Assembly (NCBI RefSeq): GCF_009734405.1
Contig: NZ_CP046453.1
Location: forward strand, 496,001-560,000
Direction: 5' to 3'
Length of the DNA: 64,000 nt
From: Corynebacterium comes
GTDB taxonomy: Bacteria > Actinomycetota > Actinomycetes > Mycobacteriales > Mycobacteriaceae
Shown: positions 1-28,339 of the stretch, in pieces
Layout: the number at the start of each line of letters is the position of its first letter
Numbering within the stretch: the first letter of the stretch is position 1
Position numbers and translations under genes: made by a program
Notes under the pieces: generated by a model
The model's input: the letters and a program-made list of their open reading frames with translations, nothing else
Told to the model about the DNA's origin: nothing
Database searches by the model: none

Positions 1-579
1 AAGTCAACGCTGCTGGCCACGGTCATGGTGGGCATCGCGGGATTGGGCAGGGCGGCCGCACGCATGGTGGTCATCGACCACCGGCGCGCGCACCTGGGGG
101 AGGTGGACGAGGATATGCTCGCCGCCTACTCCGCCACCACCACCGTCACCGCGGCAGTGCTCAAGGACACGGTTGCCACGCTGAATACCCGGCTGCCCGG
201 CCCGGACATCACCCCGGCGCAGCTTGCGGCCCGCGACTGGTGGGAGGGGCCGGAGATCTTCCTGATCATCGATGACCTTGATCTGGTCGCCGACCATGAA
301 CTGGCCAGGCTCGCCGATCTCCTGCCGCACTCCCGTGACATCGGCCTCCACCTGGTCCTGGCCCGCAAGTCCGGTGGCATCGGGCGCGCACTGTTCGGGC
401 CGTTCCTGTCGGGCGTCCGGGACCAGACCCCGGCGGTCCTGCTTCTCGACGCCGACCGTGAGGAAGGCACCATCTTCGGCATCCGTCCACGCACCCGACC
501 GCCCGGCCGGGGTACCTGGCAGGTCCGTGGAGAGACGGTGGGCGTGTGCCAGGTCGCCACAGCAGGGGAGGAGGCATGA
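1..579 (+). CDS. eccC: EccC-type FtsK/SpoIIIE ATPase of type VII secretion, C-terminal fragment
   Basis: This is the last 192 residues of a protein that begins upstream of the window. The reading frame is open at base 1, where the codons for KSTLL continue what must be a Walker A loop. A Walker B-like stretch (IFLIIDDLDL) follows near residues 84-93. The fragment matches the third ATPase domain of EccC, the cytoplasmic motor that recruits and drives WXG100 substrates through the ESX membrane channel. The next gene overlaps the stop codon (ATGA) and is an ESX-associated protein, followed by two WXG100 genes, so the assignment is supported by context. EccC proteins are usually about 1200 residues, so most of this gene is missing here. 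Confidence 0.9.
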   Translation, partial: KSTLLATVMVGIAGLGRAAARMVVIDHRRAHLGEVDEDMLAAYSATTTVTAAVLKDTVATLNTRLPGPDITPAQLAARDWWEGPEIFLIIDDLDLVADHELARLADLLPHSRDIGLHLVLARKSGGIGRALFGPFLSGVRDQTPAVLLLDADREEGTIFGIRPRTRPPGRGTWQVRGETVGVCQVATAGEEA

Positions 580-1584: not shown

Positions 1585-1615
1585 GGGAACCGGGGCGATG
1601 TTTTCGGAGTCCAAC
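1585..1615 (+). promoter_or_regulatory. ECF-sigma-type promoter upstream of the esx pair
   Basis: A GGGAACC element (1585-1591) is followed after 17 bases by GTCCAAC (1609-1615). The same arrangement, with the same 17-base spacing, occurs before the gene at 5303. GGAAC-type -35 boxes are typical of ECF sigma factors, and mycobacterial SigM has been reported to drive ESX-4 esx genes from GGAAC/CGTC-like promoters. The predicted transcript would have about 95 bases of leader before esxU. Which sigma factor acts here is inference. Confidence 0.6.
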
Positions 1616-1716
1616 ATTGGTGAGAGGGCCCACCTGGCGGCCTTTTCGGGGGAGCGATCGGGGAGGGACCCCGGCACCTGACTCATTTTCACATCAACTC
1701 GGGAGGGGCGAACACC

Positions 1717-2034
1717 ATGAGCCAACTGTTCAGAACCGAATCCGACGTGATGCTGGCGACCGCCGGCCACGTCGACACCACCAACAATGAAGTGCAGGGG
1801 GAGCTGACCCGCCTGCAGGGCGTCGTCGACGGCGTCCGCGCCAGCTGGGCGGGCAATGCGCAGATGTCCTTCGATCAGCTCATGCAGCGCTGGCACACCT
1901 CCGCACGCGAGCTGCGCGAGGCGTTGACCAGCATCTCGGACAACATCAGGCACAACGCGCGCGGTTTCGAGAACATGGAGGCCCAGAACGCACAGGCCTT
2001 CACCGGCGTCGGCGGCCAGGGCCTCGCGCTCTAG
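1717..2034 (+). CDS. esxU: WXG100-family protein, EsxU/CFP-10 type
   Basis: A 105-residue small helical protein with the family signature W44-A-G46 in the turn between two predicted amphipathic helices. No signal peptide is present, as expected for a type VII substrate. The C-terminal helix ends with FENMEAQN, where an F occupies the position of the Tyr in the usual YxxxD/E export signal. A strong GGGAGGGG ribosome site precedes the ATG. It is followed 38 bases later by a second WXG100 gene, so the two likely form a secreted heterodimer. Position and length correspond to esxU of the ESX-4 locus. Confidence 0.88.
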   Translation: MSQLFRTESDVMLATAGHVDTTNNEVQGELTRLQGVVDGVRASWAGNAQMSFDQLMQRWHTSARELREALTSISDNIRHNARGFENMEAQNAQAFTGVGGQGLAL

Positions 2035-2072
2035 GGCGCGGCAGGAAACCACAGAGAAAGGTCAAGGAACAC

Positions 2073-2360
2073 ATGGACGCAATCAAGTACCAGTTCGGCG
2101 CCATCGAGGCCGCCGCCGGAGACATCAACGCCACCTCGGGGCGCATCAACGCGCTCCTCGACGACCTCAGGTCCCAGCTCCAGCCCATGGTCGCGACCTG
2201 GGAGGGAGACTCCGCACTGGCATATCAGGAGGCCCAGGCGAAGTGGGACCGCTCCGCAGCGGAGCTCAACACCATTCTGGCCACCATCTCACGCACCGTG
2301 AGCCAGGGCAATGACCGGATGAGTGACGTCAATCGACAGGCTGCCGCCAGCTGGGGCTGA
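2073..2360 (+). CDS. esxT: WXG100-family protein, EsxT/ESAT-6 type
   Basis: A 95-residue WXG100 protein with W43-E-G45 between two predicted helices; it ends with an Ala-Ser-Trp-Gly tail. An AAGG-type ribosome site lies just upstream. It sits 38 bases behind the esxU-like gene and is presumably its heterodimer partner and co-substrate of the EccC motor. The following gene, rplM, has its own promoter and lies beyond a terminator, so this gene closes the ESX transcription unit. The assignment as esxT is by position and size. Confidence 0.88.
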   Translation: MDAIKYQFGAIEAAAGDINATSGRINALLDDLRSQLQPMVATWEGDSALAYQEAQAKWDRSAAELNTILATISRTVSQGNDRMSDVNRQAAASWG

Positions 2361-2508
2361 GCCCGCTGAACCGGCACTGCTGAACGGCCCCGGCCCGACC
2401 GACCCGTACCCACGGGGCAGACGCGGACCCATTTCCGGACCGGGACCCGGCGTGTGGTGGCCCGGGCAGGCCACCACGCGCGCCAGAGTGCCCACGGCGC
2501 ACCCCGTC

Positions 2509-2565
2509 AACCGCCTCCGACCGGCTTCTTTCCCAGGAGAAGCGCGGGCGGAGGCGGTTTGGTTT
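2509..2565 (+). terminator. Hairpin terminator after esxT
   Basis: The arms AACCGCCTCCG (2509-2519) and CGGAGGCGGTT (2549-2559) are perfectly complementary and are followed by TGGTTT. The right arm overlaps the -35 box proposed for the rplM promoter. The whole 2361-2702 gap holds only this hairpin, the rplM promoter and the rplM leader. Confidence 0.6.
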
Positions 2566-2588
2566 ATCCGGGGGCGGTCCCCTACACT
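2559..2588 (+). promoter_or_regulatory. Candidate rplM promoter
   Basis: TTGGTT (2559-2564) and TACACT (2583-2588) are spaced by 18 bases. The leader to the rplM start would be about 110 bases, which is usual for ribosomal protein operons in this group. Confidence 0.45.
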
Positions 2589-2702
2589 AAAACGGTTGTG
2601 TGCACTGCGCGCGGGTCTCCACCGGCCGCCGCGCTCCAGTCACGTACACGCGAAGTTCTTTTTCGGCCGGCAGCCCCCAGACAGACTTTCAAGGAGTCAT
2701 TA

Positions 2703-3146
2703 GTGTCTACTTACCACCCGAAGAGCGGTGACATCACCCGTAAGTGGTACGTCATCGACGCCACTGACGTGGTCCTGGGCCGACTCGCCACCCACGCAGC
2801 TGATCTGCTGCGCGGCAAGGGCAAGCCCCAGTACGCACCGAACGTTGACTGCGGTGACCATGTCATCGTCATCAACGCCGACAAGGTTCACGTGTCCTCC
2901 AACAAGCGTGACCGTGAGATGCGCTACCGCCACACCGGTTACCCGGGTGGTCTGCGCTCCATGACCCTGGGTAAGGCTCTGGACACCCGTCCGGACCGCG
3001 TGATCGAGGAAGCTATCACCGGCATGATGCCGCACAACAAGCTTTCCGCCGCTTCTGTGAAGAAGCTCCACGTTTTCACTGGCTCTGAGCACCCGTACGC
3101 CGGCCAGCAGCCCGAGACCTACGAGATCAAGCAGGTGGCACAGTGA
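2703..3146 (+). CDS. rplM: 50S ribosomal protein L13
   Basis: A 147-residue protein that matches L13 along its whole length, with the characteristic WYVIDA start, LGRLA segment and GMMPHNKL motif. The start is GTG at 2703, preceded by AAGGAG at 2691-2696; the open frame extends further upstream but that part has no L13 character. L13 binds early in 50S assembly. The stop overlaps the GTG start of rpsI (GTGA), giving the conserved rplM-rpsI operon. Confidence 0.97.
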
Positions 3147-3688
3147 CCGAGCAGAACCAGAACGAAGACCTGAACGTGGCTGAGGCCGACGACATCGAGG
3201 CAGCCACCGCCGCCACCGAGGAGTTCGCCTACACCATCGGCGACGCCGTCGCTCCCGAGGTCACCGAGGACGAGGTCGAGGCAGCTGCCCCGATCGAGCT
3301 CGACGGCCCGATTCAGACCGTTGGTCGCCGTAAGCGCGCCATCGCCCGCATCCACGTGGTTGTCGGCTCCGGCAACATCACCTGCAACGGCCGCTCGCTC
3401 GAGGATTACTTCCCGAACAAGCTGCACCAGCAGGACATCCTCCAGCCGCTCGAGCTGCTCGAGCGCAACGGCCAGTTCGACATCAGGGCCAACATCTCCG
3501 GTGGCGGCCCGACCGGCCAGTCCGGCGCCCTGCGCCTGGCCATCGCCCGTGCACTGAACCTGTACAACCCGGCTGACCGCGCCGCCCTGAAGAAGGCCGG
3601 CCTGCTCACCCGTGACGCTCGTGCAGTTGAGCGTAAGAAGGCTGGTCTGCACAAGGCACGTCGTGCCCCGCAGTACTCCAAGCGTTAA
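3143..3688 (+). CDS. rpsI: 30S ribosomal protein S9
   Basis: A 181-residue protein starting with GTG inside the rplM stop. The conserved S9 body begins near residue 58 ([10 protein letters not shown]) and ends with the invariant tail RRAPQYSKR, which reaches the P-site tRNA. The first ~55 residues are an acidic Glu/Ala-rich extension. S9 is normally about 130 residues in E. coli; extended acidic N-termini are common in actinobacteria. Confidence 0.97.
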
Positions 3689-3707
3689 GCTCCGCCTTCG
3701 CTTGTCG

Positions 3708-3738
3708 ACGCCGTCCCGCCTTCCGGTGGGGCGGCGTT
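3708..3738 (+). terminator. Terminator after rpsI
   Basis: ACGCCGTCCCGCC (3708-3720) pairs with GGTGGGGCGGCGT (3725-3737) around a TTCC tetraloop with two mismatches, closing the rplM-rpsI unit. Confidence 0.6.
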
Positions 3739-3876
3739 CGCCGTTTCCGACAACGTGAGCAATGTTCATCAACGGGCCGGTCGGCACCTCCCCGGAGGAC
3801 CATCCGGGGCGTCGACAAGCGCCCGCAGGTGCCCCGCCTGCCGCGAAGCAGGGCGGGGACGTGCATACTGTTCTGC

Positions 3877-5220
3877 ATGACTCGACTCTTCGGTACCGAT
3901 GGCGTTCGCGGGCTCGCGAACAAGGATCTCACTGTATCCATGGCGCTTCAGCTGGGTGCGGCGGCGGCGCACGTGCTCACCCGGGACCGGGCGGCGAGCG
4001 ACCGTCGTCCCACCGCGATCGTCGGCCGTGACCCGCGCGTGTCCGGTGAGATGCTGGCTGCAGCACTGTCCGCCGGTATGGCGTCCCGGGGTGTGGACGT
4101 GCTGCGGGTCGGTGTCCTCCCCACCCCTGCCGTGGCTTTCCTCACCGACGACTACGGCGCGGACATGGGAGTGATGATCTCCGCGTCGCACAACCCGATG
4201 CCGGATAACGGCATCAAGTTCTTCTCCGCCGGTGGCCGTAAGCTGCCGGATTCGGTGGAGGATGAGATCGAGGCTGCCATGGCGGAACTGCCCGACGACG
4301 GCCCGACCGGCACCGGCGTGGGACGTGTCATCGAGGAGGCCCCGGATGCCAAGGACCGCTACCTGAAGCACCTCGCGGAGGCCACCCCGGTGGATCTGTC
4401 GGGCATCAAGGTCGTCGTTGACGCCGCCAACGGCGCGGCCTCTGCCGTCGCGCCGAAGGCGTATGCGGCGGCGGGTGCCGAGGTCGTCGCCATCCATAAC
4501 CGGCCCAACGCCTACAACATCAACGACAACTGCGGTTCCACCCATATGGGTCAGCTGCAGAAGGCCGTTCTCGAGCACGGCGCGGACCTCGGTCTGGCCC
4601 ATGACGGCGACGCCGACCGCTGCCTTGCGGTCGACGCGCAGGGCAACATCATCGACGGCGACCAGATCATGGCTGTCCTCGCGGTGGCGATGAAGGAGAA
4701 GTCGGAGCTGCGGAAGAACACCCTCGTCGCCACGGTCATGAGCAACCTGGGTCTGCGTCTGGCGATGGAGGCCCAGGGCATCACCATGCTGGAGACGAAG
4801 GTCGGTGACCGCTACGTCCTGGAGGAGCTCAACGCCGGCGACTACCGCCTGGGTGGCGAGCAGTCCGGTCACATCGTCCTGCCCGTGCACTGCACGACCG
4901 GTGACGGCACCATGACGGGACTCAAGCTCATGGCCCGGATGGCCGAGACCGGCGAGTCCCTCAGGGACCTGGCCAGCGTGATGAAGGTCCTGCCGCAGGT
5001 GCTCATCAACGTGCCGGTGGACAACAAGGCTGCCATCCTTGAGTCCGCGGCCGTCCGGGAGTCGATGGCCGAGGCCGAGTCGGAGTTGGGTAACACCGGC
5101 CGCGTTCTGCTGCGCCCCTCCGGTACCGAGCAGCTGTTCCGCGTCATGGTGGAGGCCTCCGAGAGCGAGCAGGCCCGCCGCGTGGCCGGCCGCCTCGCCG
5201 CGGTGGTCGCAGCGGTTTAA
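3877..5220 (+). CDS. glmM: Phosphoglucosamine mutase
   Basis: A 447-residue enzyme converting glucosamine-6-phosphate to glucosamine-1-phosphate for UDP-GlcNAc and cell-wall synthesis. The ATG at 3877 gives the family N-terminus [12 protein letters not shown]. The phosphoserine loop ISASHNP carries the catalytic Ser104. The metal-binding DGDADR loop lies near residue 242, and the phosphate-binding [10 protein letters not shown] loop is near the C-terminus. It is the functional partner of glmS, which lies 2.9 kb downstream beyond an ESX-associated insert. Confidence 0.97.
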
Positions 5221-5227
5221 AGCCGTC

Positions 5228-5258
5228 GGGAACCTTTCGCCCCCTGCAGCAGTCCAAT
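5228..5258 (+). promoter_or_regulatory. ECF-sigma-type promoter upstream of the post-glmM operon
   Basis: GGGAACC (5228-5234), 17 bases, then GTCCAAT (5252-5258), followed by GTTGGTGA. This is the same architecture as at 1585-1615, and the similarity continues just past the -10 box (TTGGTGA in both). The predicted transcript starts about 40 bases before the 5303 gene. Confidence 0.6.
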
Positions 5259-5302
5259 GTTGGTGACACACCAGCCACGGACTTCTGCAAGGGGGACTTT
5301 TC

Positions 5303-5602
5303 ATGTCCGAGCTCTTCCTCGACCACACGGGGGCGCTGCAGGCGCTCAACCACCTGGTCGCCGATGGTGAGGAACAACTCGCCCGCCACATCAGCACCAG
5401 CCCGGCGTTGCCCGCCACCACCGCAGGCCGCGACTTCACCGACCGGGGCACCGCGATCGCCGCCCTGCTACAGCGCCTACATGACGTCGGCGCCGAGCGT
5501 ATCGACGCCGTCCGGGCCACCGCCGAGGCCGCGGCGTCGCAGGTGCGGGTACTTCGCGACGTCGACAAGCAGTTGGCCGCTGACCTCGGTGGTGAGCGCT
5601 GA
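5303..5602 (+). CDS. Small helical protein, probable ESX-4-associated
   Basis: A 99-residue, Ala/Leu-rich, cysteine-free protein that should fold as two helices with a connecting segment (about residues 1-28 and 46-99). It has no signal peptide, no membrane segment and no WXG. Size and predicted fold resemble EspC/WXG100-like secreted partners. Its position directly after glmM corresponds to Rv3440c of M. tuberculosis. Its stop overlaps or abuts the start of the next gene at 5602. A GGGGGA ribosome site precedes the ATG. It may be an ESX-4 substrate or chaperone; this is inference from context and promoter. Confidence 0.65.
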   Translation: MSELFLDHTGALQALNHLVADGEEQLARHISTSPALPATTAGRDFTDRGTAIAALLQRLHDVGAERIDAVRATAEAAASQVRVLRDVDKQLAADLGGER

Positions 5603-6954
5603 TGCCCGCACCACTGGCGGCCGCCGGCTACCGGGGAATCGTACAGATGCTGGCGAATGCCTCCCGCGGGAGCTATCGCGGACCGGTGGTGCCCGTCGAC
5701 GCGGTTTCGCGGGCGCTCAGCTCCACGGAGGGGCTCGACCCGGGTCAACTCGTCGAGCACACCCGCGCCGCCGTCGGAATGTCCAGCACCTCGGGTGTGC
5801 GGGGCGACGTCATCGAGTCGCTCTTCACCTTCCTGTCGCAGGCGGCCTTCGGTGAAATCCTCGGCCGGGTCGTCGACAACATCAGTGATTGGTTGGCCAA
5901 CCGGGACGACAGCGGGGACATCGCCAGGGACGCCGAGGACGCCGGGGAGGCGCTCCGCGACATCGAGGACGTCGCCGACACCGGCGTTGAGGAGATTCTC
6001 ATCGCCCTTCGCGCCGTGATCACCCAGCTGTGCGCATTCCTCAACCAGGTGGACCCGGCCAACCATCCACGCGAGTTTGCCGAGTGTGTCGCCGCAGGGG
6101 CGGACCTCATCGACTCGGCAGGCAGCACCATCCTCGACTGCTGCCGGGACCGTGACACCGCCGTCGCCTCGTGTCTGGATGAGTTCATCGCCCGCGGCAC
6201 CACTGTCTGCGAGAGGCCCGCTTCCTGCGCCCGCACGGAGGTCGTCTGCGACGACGGCACCCCGGCCGCACCCTCCGGCCAGGTTAAGCCCACGCAGACG
6301 CCGACGGCGCCCCAGTCCGTGGAGCCGGCACCGGAGCCGCCTGTGCCGCCGAAGAAGCCGGTGGAGGAACCGACCGTGCCCACGGCGCCCCAGTCCGTGG
6401 AGCCGGCACCCGAGCCGCTTGTGCCGCCGAAAAAGCCGGTGGAGGAACCGACCGTGTCCACAGTGCCCCAGTCCGTGGAGCCGGTTGACGAGTGTCCGGA
6501 AATCCCGGAAATCCCGGAAATCCCGGAAATCCCGGAGCTACCTGATCCGCCGGAAACTGTGGAACCGAACGGTACTGACTGTTGCGGGATCCTCGGACTC
6601 GTCGGTGTGGGCGCCGCGCTCCTCGGCGTCGGTCTGCTGATCAGCTCGCTCGAGGACTGCATACTGGAACCCGCTCCAGGGCCTGCATCCGAACCTGTGC
6701 CGGAACCTGCTCCCGAACCGCCACCTCCACCGAAACAGAACCTGGCCGACGTACCCGAACCGCCGCCTCCACCGAAACAGAACCTGGCCGACGTACCCGA
6801 ACCGCCGCCTCCACCGAAACAGAACCTGGCCGACGTGCCTGAACCGCCGCCTCCACCGAAACAGACGGCGGTACCGGTGGCCGTGCCACCTGTGGCGCCG
6901 GAGCCTCAGCCCACCCCGGTGCAGGGTGGCGCCCGGAAGGCAGGTGAATGGTGA
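5602..6954 (+). CDS. Ala/Pro-rich repeat protein, probable ESX-4-associated
   Basis: A 450-residue protein with three parts. Residues 1-220 form a helical domain with several cysteines (CCRDRD, CARTE). Residues about 230-312 are a Pro/Glu-rich region with two and a fraction copies of a 26-residue unit (TAPQSVEPAPEP...) and four Pro-Glu-Ile triplets. Residues about 330-352 contain a hydrophobic segment (GLVGVGAALLGVGLLISSL) flanked by cysteines. The tail carries three full copies of a 14-residue EPPPPPKQNLADVP unit. Position matches Rv3439c, an alanine/proline-rich protein after glmM. Function unknown; a surface-exposed or secreted ESX-linked protein is plausible. It shares a start/stop overlap with both neighbours, so the three genes form one operon. 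Confidence 0.7.
   Translation: MPAPLAAAGYRGIVQMLANASRGSYRGPVVPVDAVSRALSSTEGLDPGQLVEHTRAAVGMSSTSGVRGDVIESLFTFLSQAAFGEILGRVVDNISDWLANRDDSGDIARDAEDAGEALRDIEDVADTGVEEILIALRAVITQLCAFLNQVDPANHPREFAECVAAGADLIDSAGSTILDCCRDRDTAVASCLDEFIARGTTVCERPASCARTEVVCDDGTPAAPSGQVKPTQTPTAPQSVEPAPEPPVPPKKPVEEPTVPTAPQSVEPAPEPLVPPKKPVEEPTVSTVPQSVEPVDECPEIPEIPEIPEIPELPDPPETVEPNGTDCCGILGLVGVGAALLGVGLLISSLEDCILEPAPGPASEPVPEPAPEPPPPPKQNLADVPEPPPPPKQNLADVPEPPPPPKQNLADVPEPPPPPKQTAVPVAVPPVAPEPQPTPVQGGARKAGEW
6304..6483 (+). repeat. 78-bp in-frame tandem repeat
   Basis: Units at 6304-6381 and 6382-6459, then a partial unit at 6460-6483, encode the TAPQSVEPAPEP-type repeat of the proline-rich protein. The unit is a multiple of three, so copy-number change would keep the frame. 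Confidence 0.8.
6496..6531 (+). repeat. 9-bp tandem repeat, four copies
   Basis: Four perfect copies of CCGGAAATC encode Pro-Glu-Ile four times. A perfect short repeat of this type is prone to slippage. Confidence 0.85.
6715..6864 (+). repeat. 42-bp in-frame tandem repeat
   Basis: Three nearly identical 42-bp units (6715-6756, 6757-6798, 6799-6840) and a partial fourth (6841-6864) encode EPPPPPKQNLADVP. Confidence 0.85.
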
Positions 6955-7142
6955 TGGAATTCGAGGAGTTCTCGCGACAGTTCCGTCAGCGGACCACGCA
7001 ACGCATGATCGAGTTCGAGAAGGCACTGGCGCAGTCGCAGCAGCGCGTGGAGAAGGCCGTCACGCCGCCGGCGCCCACGCCGCAACGCCCCCGGCCGGGA
7101 TCGGCGAGGGGCAGGGTGCAGGGACTGCTGCGGAAGAGTTAG
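6948..7142 (+). CDS. Small basic hypothetical protein
   Basis: A 64-residue product with an N-terminal helix rich in Glu, Gln and Phe (about residues 3-40) and a basic Pro/Arg-rich tail ending in LLRKS. No known domain is recognised. It overlaps the 3' end of the repeat protein; ATG 6948 is preceded by a GGAAGG-like ribosome site, and ATG 6954 (TGATG overlap) is an alternative. It is the last gene of the ESX-associated operon and overlaps the convergent hydrolase gene by 4 bases. Confidence 0.5.
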   Translation: MVMEFEEFSRQFRQRTTQRMIEFEKALAQSQQRVEKAVTPPAPTPQRPRPGSARGRVQGLLRKS

Positions 7143-27745: not shown

Positions 27746-28339
27746 GTGAGTGATACCGACGTAGAGCTGGCAGAACTTGTGCCGCTGGCCGTCGACGGCG
27801 ATCGCCGTTCCCTCCAGCGCATCATGGCGATCATTCACCCGATGGTGCTGCGTTATGCCCGGGCCCGGGTCGGCGGAGGCCGCACCCCCACCCCCGAGGA
27901 TATTGCCCAGGAGATCTGCCTGGCGGTGGCGACGTCGATAGGCAACTACGTCGACAGGGGCCGACCGTTCATGGCTTTCGTGTACGGCATCGCGTTCAAC
28001 AAGGTGGCCGACGCCCACCGCTCCAGGGCCAGGGACCATTCGCACCCCACCGACGACGTCCCCGACGTCGTCACCGAGTGGGATACGCCCGAGGATCACG
28101 CCCTGGAGGCGGACGGAAGTAACAGAGTGAGGGCGCTTCTCGATTCATTAAGTGACAAAGCCCGCGACATCGTGATCCTGCGCGTCTTCGTCGGTCTTTC
28201 GGCCGATGAAACCGCCGAGATCGTGGGCAGCACCCCCGGAGCCGTGCGTGTGGCACAGCACCGGGCAATGAACACACTGCGCAAGAACCTGGGCAGCCAG
28301 CAGGAGACCCGGGAGTCAGAGAACAAGGGAGTCAAGTGA
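27746..28339 (+). CDS. sigD: ECF sigma factor SigD
   Basis: A 197-residue group IV sigma factor with region 2 (residues about 25-95, EDIAQEICLAVATSIG, AFVYGIAFNKVADAHR) and region 4 (about 125-185, DIVILRVFVGLSADETAEIVG). GTG start after a GGAGGAG site. It overlaps rsdA by ATGA. In corynebacteria SigD controls mycolate and cell-envelope genes; in mycobacteria the equivalent pair is sigD-rsdA. Confidence 0.93.
   Translation: MSDTDVELAELVPLAVDGDRRSLQRIMAIIHPMVLRYARARVGGGRTPTPEDIAQEICLAVATSIGNYVDRGRPFMAFVYGIAFNKVADAHRSRARDHSHPTDDVPDVVTEWDTPEDHALEADGSNRVRALLDSLSDKARDIVILRVFVGLSADETAEIVGSTPGAVRVAQHRAMNTLRKNLGSQQETRESENKGVK

Follow-up and report, generated by a model that had tools for sequence, protein, structure and literature searches.

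A shared extracytoplasmic-function-type promoter before the ESX-4 substrate genes and the genes behind glmM in Corynebacterium comes: a likely SigM regulon

In this study, two closely matching candidate promoters of Corynebacterium comes were analysed, one before the esx gene pair of the ESX-4 locus, a type VII secretion system (T7SS), and the other behind glmM. The window, namely, the whole stretch of 64,000 nucleotides under analysis, covers positions 496001-560000 of contig 1, and the genome searched comprises 2.89 Mb. The first promoter (P1, 1585..1623, forward strand) stands before the esx pair and combines a -35 box GGGAACC at 1585-1591, a -10 box GTCCAAC at 1609-1615 and a start region TTGGTGA at 1617-1623. 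The second (P2, 5228..5266, forward strand) follows glmM and is composed of GGGAACC at 5228-5234, GTCCAAT at 5252-5258 and TTGGTGA at 5260-5266. Both were assigned to the extracytoplasmic function (ECF) type by sequence match, genome-wide pattern search and conservation in relatives. A preliminary description of the window had reported GGGAACC-N17-GTCCAAY at 1585 and 5228 and TTGGTGA past each -10 box; these readings agree base for base with the sequence, and 17 bases separate the boxes in both sites.

P1 precedes two genes of WXG100 proteins on the forward strand, namely, a first one of 105 amino acids (1717..2034; EsxT/EsxU type, used as the EsxT query; PF06013 8.3e-21, TIGR03930) and a second one of 95 amino acids (2073..2360; PF06013 3.4e-20, TIGR03930). 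The 3′ end of an EccC-type ATPase gene occupies 1..579 on the same strand, and the genes of EccB, mycosin and EccD sit upstream of the window (PF01580, PF05108, PF19053 and PF00082 at the locus). EccB, EccC, EccD, mycosin and a WXG100 pair thus occur together, as in an ESX-4 locus; what is added here, unlike in the known locus, is the post-glmM units of small and large proteins with the same promoter type. Between the two units lie rplM, rpsI and glmM (2703..5220, forward strand), which were named by reading the sequence and the gene order.

P2 precedes three forward-strand genes encoding a 99-amino-acid protein (5303..5602), its 450-amino-acid partner (5602..6954) and a 64-amino-acid protein without a family (6948..7142). 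The 99-amino-acid protein has no Pfam or NCBIfam family, including no match to PF06013 or TIGR03930, and is predicted to form a two-helix hairpin resembling PE and WXG100 proteins. Its partner carries a helical domain (residues 1-205), a disordered proline-rich tail, a hydrophobic helix (331-353) and a C-terminal RKAGxW that is conserved in many relatives. In the corresponding DNA (6481-6900), in-frame repeats IPEIPEIPE and PPPPPKQNLADVPE were noticed, and their copy number may vary between strains. Hairpin partner and helical domain together give weak PE/PPE-like folds, and neither protein had a match at E 0.001 in fold searches. When fewer than 8000 candidates were scored for each protein, 66 relatives of the 450-amino-acid protein and 40 of the 99-amino-acid protein were found, and the named relatives of the former all belong to Corynebacterium except one filed under Staphylococcus. 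The mycobacterial proteins behind glmM are Rv3439c/Rv3440c, and their homology to the 450-amino-acid protein could not be confirmed. The preliminary description had placed the genes at 5303-7142 in the ESX-4 system, which is plausible from the look of a secreted pair, and is weakened by the faintness of the PE/PPE-like folds and the lack of a family. Export of such small/large protein pairs through ESX-4 is likewise plausible, as judged from their predicted features.

The genome-wide search that had been proposed for the short pattern gave a mixed answer. In the window alone, GGGAACC-N16..18-GTC occurs twice against 0.94 expected, and 25 of 100 shuffles reach two, which is not significant; across the genome, GGGAACC-N15..19-GTC is frequent, with 91 matches against 39 for the reversed control. 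The full pattern GGGAACC-N17-GTCCAANNTTGG is rare, being exact only at the two window sites, with 9 sites at up to two mismatches and 16 against 7 in the reversed control at up to three, but most of its genes are not ESX genes. Judged by the condition named in the preliminary description, namely, a motif that is frequent and unrelated to ESX genes, the short pattern is refuted and the full one only partly so. Without TTGG, the pattern at two mismatches was lost in noise (179 versus 148 in the control). The longer form GGAACC-N16..18-GTCYAA exceeded chance and gave 11 sites, all with N17 (strict sites), against 1 for the reversed control. A -35 of GGAAC, a -10 of GTC and a fixed spacing above chance are therefore present, as in ECF-type promoters, and N18 is found in some relatives. 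The TTGGTGA is general only in part: the 11 sites show a loose GG or TGGTG at that place, which should be the region of the expected transcription start. An inverted repeat CCAA-YR-TTGG, seen at both window sites, was considered as an operator and dropped as it is not kept at the other sites of this genome.

Conservation was examined in 61 Corynebacterium genomes, where the strict N17 form gave 369 sites (listed in part) against 32 for the reversed pattern and was present in 50 genomes. Gene-by-gene tests of esx, glmM, recA, yraN and the HNH gene started from proteins and not from the motif. EsxT-type matches were obtained in 60 of the 61 genomes, and the loci read were those of 59 relatives plus the window. 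In 50/60 loci, GGAAC-N17..19-GTC lies no more than 400 bases upstream of the esx gene, and 43 of these read GTCNRA. Where glmM was identified (47 loci), the pattern follows it in 40, of which 37 read GTCNRA. Both sites occurred together in 40/47 loci (34 in the stricter form), the esx site alone in three and neither in four, and the opposite strand of the same regions gave 0/60 and 1/47, respectively. Where glmM was missing from the stretch (13 loci), the esx site was present in seven. The three bases after GTC were CAA or TAA in 65 of 91 cases, and the -10 trimer was GTC in all 48 GGAACC-N17/18-GTx matches before esx. The claim that the two units share an ECF-type promoter is thus supported, and the pairing is kept across much of the genus. 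For the membrane HNH gene, 67 of the best 80 of 158 loci carried a site just upstream when loose matches were included, and 52 carried a strict one; 1600 random windows of the same loci, which may overlap the true site, held 15 strict matches. At nine HNH loci outside the genus, belonging to Rhodococcus (5), Dietzia (3) and Millisia (1), no such site was found in a search for the GTC-type -10 only. In two genomes, G030 (locus L220) and G003 (L224), the esx and post-glmM promoters both read GGAACC-N17-GTCTCT, and the sigma factor SigM is approximately 30% identical to that of C. comes; this joint change may serve as a natural test of sigma-promoter co-evolution.

Each of the 11 strict sites in C. 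comes is closely followed by a co-directional open reading frame. In addition to the esx pair and the 99/450/64-amino-acid unit, they precede a 92-amino-acid protein with an NlpC/P60 hydrolase (PF00877 9e-23), a DUF3558 lipoprotein (PF12079 7.3e-12) with a 586-amino-acid effector-like protein, a membrane HNH nuclease (GmrSD_C 2.7e-10, HNH_4), the TagI glycosylase (PF03352 6.5e-65), a SAF-domain membrane protein, a 180-amino-acid protein before treY (named by reading its sequence), an AbiEi_4/DUF559 protein, another AbiEi-like protein (weak in Pfam, with 8.1e-08 for the best AbiEi model of PADLOC) and a 353-amino-acid protein resembling restriction endonucleases (REase-like; weak match, MTES_1575 0.0075). 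No strict site precedes rplM, rpsI or glmM. A regulon restricted to ESX genes, as first suggested, is too narrow, given that 7/11 strict sites precede genes not read as secretion substrates. At five of the 11 sites (HNH, TagI, SAF, 92-amino-acid and REase-like genes), the G of GTC and the start codon are 12-14 bases apart. This single genome holds three AbiEi/DUF559/REase-like proteins with the promoter (L100, L102 and L095), two of which resemble abortive-infection AbiEi.

A set of 80 sites from 11 relatives extended the membership. These sites were fetched by motif and so show membership rather than an unbiased rate, and the set is incomplete for its genomes; the omissions include two G018 sites and C2:9741 from G044. 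Orthologs stood at sites in nine of the 11 genomes for the NlpC, SAF, HNH and 180-amino-acid genes, in eight for TagI and in five for the 586-amino-acid protein, and the AbiEi and REase-like members vary between genomes. An A directly 5′ of GTC was found in 58/80 sites. Counted from GTC, ATG was at offset 11 in 13 sites, at offset 12 in 31 and at offset 13 in 4 (48/80, with 0.94 expected per offset); therefore, many transcripts of the regulon look leaderless, which is a good indirect sign that the sites are promoters. Sites without an ortholog of the C. comes regulon include those before recA in two genomes and, in G016, before yraN-comM and the beginning of dprA (PF02021, Mg_chelatase, PF02481). 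Searched from the protein, recA has a site in 24 of the best 30 of 60 matches and in eight of 18 further regions, that is, in 32 of the 48 genomes examined; the first count accepts any GGAAC-N16..19-GTC, including G007 (GGAACG) and G047 (GTCTAT), and four of the later regions were picked because their genomes lack sites. For yraN, 13 of the best 30 of 60 matches have a site, and comM-dprA was seen behind it in one (G016). Two further observations concern single genomes. A nucS endonuclease gene is preceded by a site in G044 (L288), and G053 carries cassettes of lipoprotein and effector-like genes with similar promoters (L293, L296, L299 and L300; the last three near-identical), as if the unit and its promoter had multiplied.

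Seven sigma factors are encoded in the genome, and a SigD-like sigma factor gene is located in the window itself at 27836-28033. The sigM gene adjoins trxB at approximately 2.79 Mb (L093) with a gap of 71 nucleotides, and its identity was derived from gene order and the best NCBIfam model; among relatives, the sigM-trxB gap is at most 250 nucleotides in 44 of the 48 loci with trxB. Across genomes, the number of sites followed SigM similarity (rho 0.69; partial 0.77 given SigC). This co-variation was measured for SigM and SigC, and the genome without a SigM match (G033) was set to an arbitrary score of 40. Coupling of SigM to ESX-4 is already known in mycobacteria. The passages concerned report that SigM overexpression in M. 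tuberculosis raises esxU/esxT and esxE/esxF and that SigM loss lowers esx-4 transcripts (PMC8593097, PMC10117145). In M. smegmatis, according to the relevant part of a review, contact frees SigM in recipients, thereby switching ESX-4 on and easing gene transfer, and ESX-4, together with a cell wall hydrolase and a nuclease, is under SigM control (PMC9514802). The preliminary description had named SigM or a similar ECF factor; through the -10 GTC, the co-variation and the mycobacterial precedent, SigM stands as the best candidate. SigM likely reads these promoters, and we consider it probable that P1 and P2 belong to a single ECF sigma regulon that includes the genes listed above and has SigM as its most likely reader.

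Several findings weigh against this reading. Strict sites are lacking at the ESX-4 machine genes, and one loose match (GGAACC-N16-GTCAGA, L103:8689) was found near the eccD/eccC starts. Strict sites are absent from 11/61 genomes, and in 10/60 loci not even a loose site precedes the esx gene; six of these loci are among the 13 without glmM. The sigma factor beside trxB scores 139 with its best NCBIfam model, NF007225 (SigM), below the cut-off of 190. The idea that site-less genomes lack sigM proved wrong: each of the 20 low-scoring genomes that were retrieved has a trxB-linked sigM, and several of these genomes have no strict site, so that a changed SigM specificity must be supposed there. The SigM correlation may also partly mirror general distance because SigM evolves fast. 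None of 50 sigM loci has a strict site before sigM (one loose match, in G028), and autoregulation was thus rejected. A gene resembling an anti-sigma factor lies beside sigM in only 1/50 loci. In the 80-site set, 18 sites precede no ortholog of the C. comes regulon, and about eight of these have no convincing gene. In C. comes itself, recA has only a degenerate -35 (GGGAGCT-N17-GTCTAA; G018 and G019 similar, by eye), and yraN has no site, so that dprA and comM are not under the promoter here. The comEC domain occurred in 36/36 genomes searched, and comEC/comEA were rejected as members because no site was found in the flanks (approximately 1.5 kb) of 30 loci or in the 3.5 kb region of C. comes. 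In C. glutamicum, the T7SS is described, in the part of the source concerned, as Fur-regulated and serving iron (PMC12607788). The single anti-sigma candidate is a 228-amino-acid membrane-protein-like open reading frame between sigM and trxB in G013 (L454), which is not seen in the other 49 loci. In mycobacteria, the anti-sigma gene presumably lies beside sigM. A transmembrane anti-SigM is named for them in part of the review (PMC9514802).

The set resembles the mycobacterial SigM regulon, as far as described in those passages, in its SigM-type ECF factor, its esxU/esxT targets and its ESX-4 coupling, and for M. smegmatis also in a hydrolase and a nuclease. It differs in adding recA, in some species yraN(-comM-dprA), TagI, SAF and AbiEi/DUF559 genes, in the many transcripts that look leaderless and in the rarity of an anti-sigma-like gene by sigM. 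C. glutamicum SigM belongs to the same sigma factor family and genus, presumably with the same gene neighbourhood; the section on it in a 2017 paper confirms no SigM-dependent promoter and calls for further study of its function and promoters (PMC5483222), whereas a candidate promoter class and regulon are described here. Competence regulons (recA, dprA, comM) are matched by the promoter at recA in many genomes and at yraN in some (with comM and the dprA start in G016); unlike in those regulons, comEC lies outside the set in the sequence examined, and the sigma factor and the T7SS context differ. In the literature searched (open-licence papers only), no corynebacterial SigM promoter class or regulon reaching recA and yraN-comM-dprA was found, nor a recipient programme of the M. 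smegmatis kind for Corynebacterium.

On the best reading, the sites mark the SigM regulon of Corynebacterium, which probably serves DNA acquisition or repair in coupling with ESX-4. SigM would read P1, P2 and the remaining strict sites, thereby switching on 11 units together, and the small/large protein pairs would leave the cell through ESX-4. The output would be a state of DNA acquisition and recombination, and contact between cells is a possible trigger, in line with what is reported on M. smegmatis. We tentatively propose that such a SigM-driven, recipient-type state is widespread in Corynebacterium: ESX-4, the secreted hydrolase and the PE/PPE-like pairs would open or bridge the envelope, and the incoming DNA would be received and recombined by nucleases of the membrane and cytoplasm together with RecA, and in some species also with DprA and ComM. 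DNA acquisition is placed as the leading purpose, with repair or stress close behind, because the set contains the three kinds of genes controlled in M. smegmatis together with recA and, in some species, yraN(-comM-dprA). Between this output and a response to DNA damage or envelope stress, the odds appear about even.

SigM may instead read the sites in a programme of DNA-damage, oxidative or envelope stress response, with ESX-4 as the export route, which we regard as rather unlikely. The repair genes recA and tagI speak for it (RecA, TagI and NucS act in repair, and NlpC/P60 in wall repair), as does the position of comEC outside the regulon in the sequence examined, but dprA-comM and secreted or membrane nucleases would be unusual stress genes, and recA is already controlled by DNA damage through a separate route, SOS. 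In the C. glutamicum sources, as far as the relevant sections go, SigM is linked to oxidative stress (PMC5483222) and the T7SS to iron uptake and survival under oxidative stress (PMC12607788), but four retested promoters of sigma-M targets proved sigma-H-dependent (PMC5483222).

That the regulon is real but read by SigE/SigH, SigC or SigD is improbable in our view. Apart from the number of sigma factors encoded here, such a reader is suggested by the -35 elements given for C. glutamicum in the passages concerned, namely, GGAAC for sigma-E/H (PMC10012870) and GGGAACT for sigma-C (PMC5483222). The -35 GGAAC is thus common to the sigma-E/sigma-H regulon and the present one, but the -10 there is GTT (PMC10012870) and that of sigma-C is CGACTA (PMC5483222), neither of which corresponds to the constant GTC; SigE/SigH were rejected on this point. 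SigC is an unlikely reader, being 65-100% identical in all 61 genomes, with or without sites, and no longer tracking site number once SigM was accounted for (rho 0.35; partial -0.28 given SigM). Equally doubtful is a role in interbacterial competition, in which ESX-4 would export effectors and the AbiEi/DUF559/REase and HNH proteins would be toxins, nucleases or protection. The variation of the AbiEi and REase-like members, the several cassettes of G053 and the operon of DUF3558 and effector-like genes accord with it, but Pfam and NCBIfam revealed no toxin domain in the 450- or 586-amino-acid proteins, and recA, tagI, dprA and comM do not fit. A chance likeness of two short sequences, as the window shuffles alone would allow, is rejected as next to impossible because the pairing is conserved across the genus, where strict sites far outnumber the reversed control.

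A SigM-read regulon would have implications for both secretion and DNA handling in the genus. With 11 candidate promoters in C. comes and hundreds across the genus, direct testing of SigM becomes possible; the 99/450-amino-acid, 92-amino-acid/NlpC and 586-amino-acid proteins are new candidate ESX-4 substrates; and the 180-amino-acid and SAF genes can now be studied as part of one system. If the reading is true, recA and, in some species, yraN-comM-dprA share a promoter with ESX-4 substrates, thereby tying the oldest ESX system to recombination by regulation, which could explain the wide retention of ESX-4. The findings point to a single sigma factor of the stress type that may turn on secretion jointly with DNA handling.

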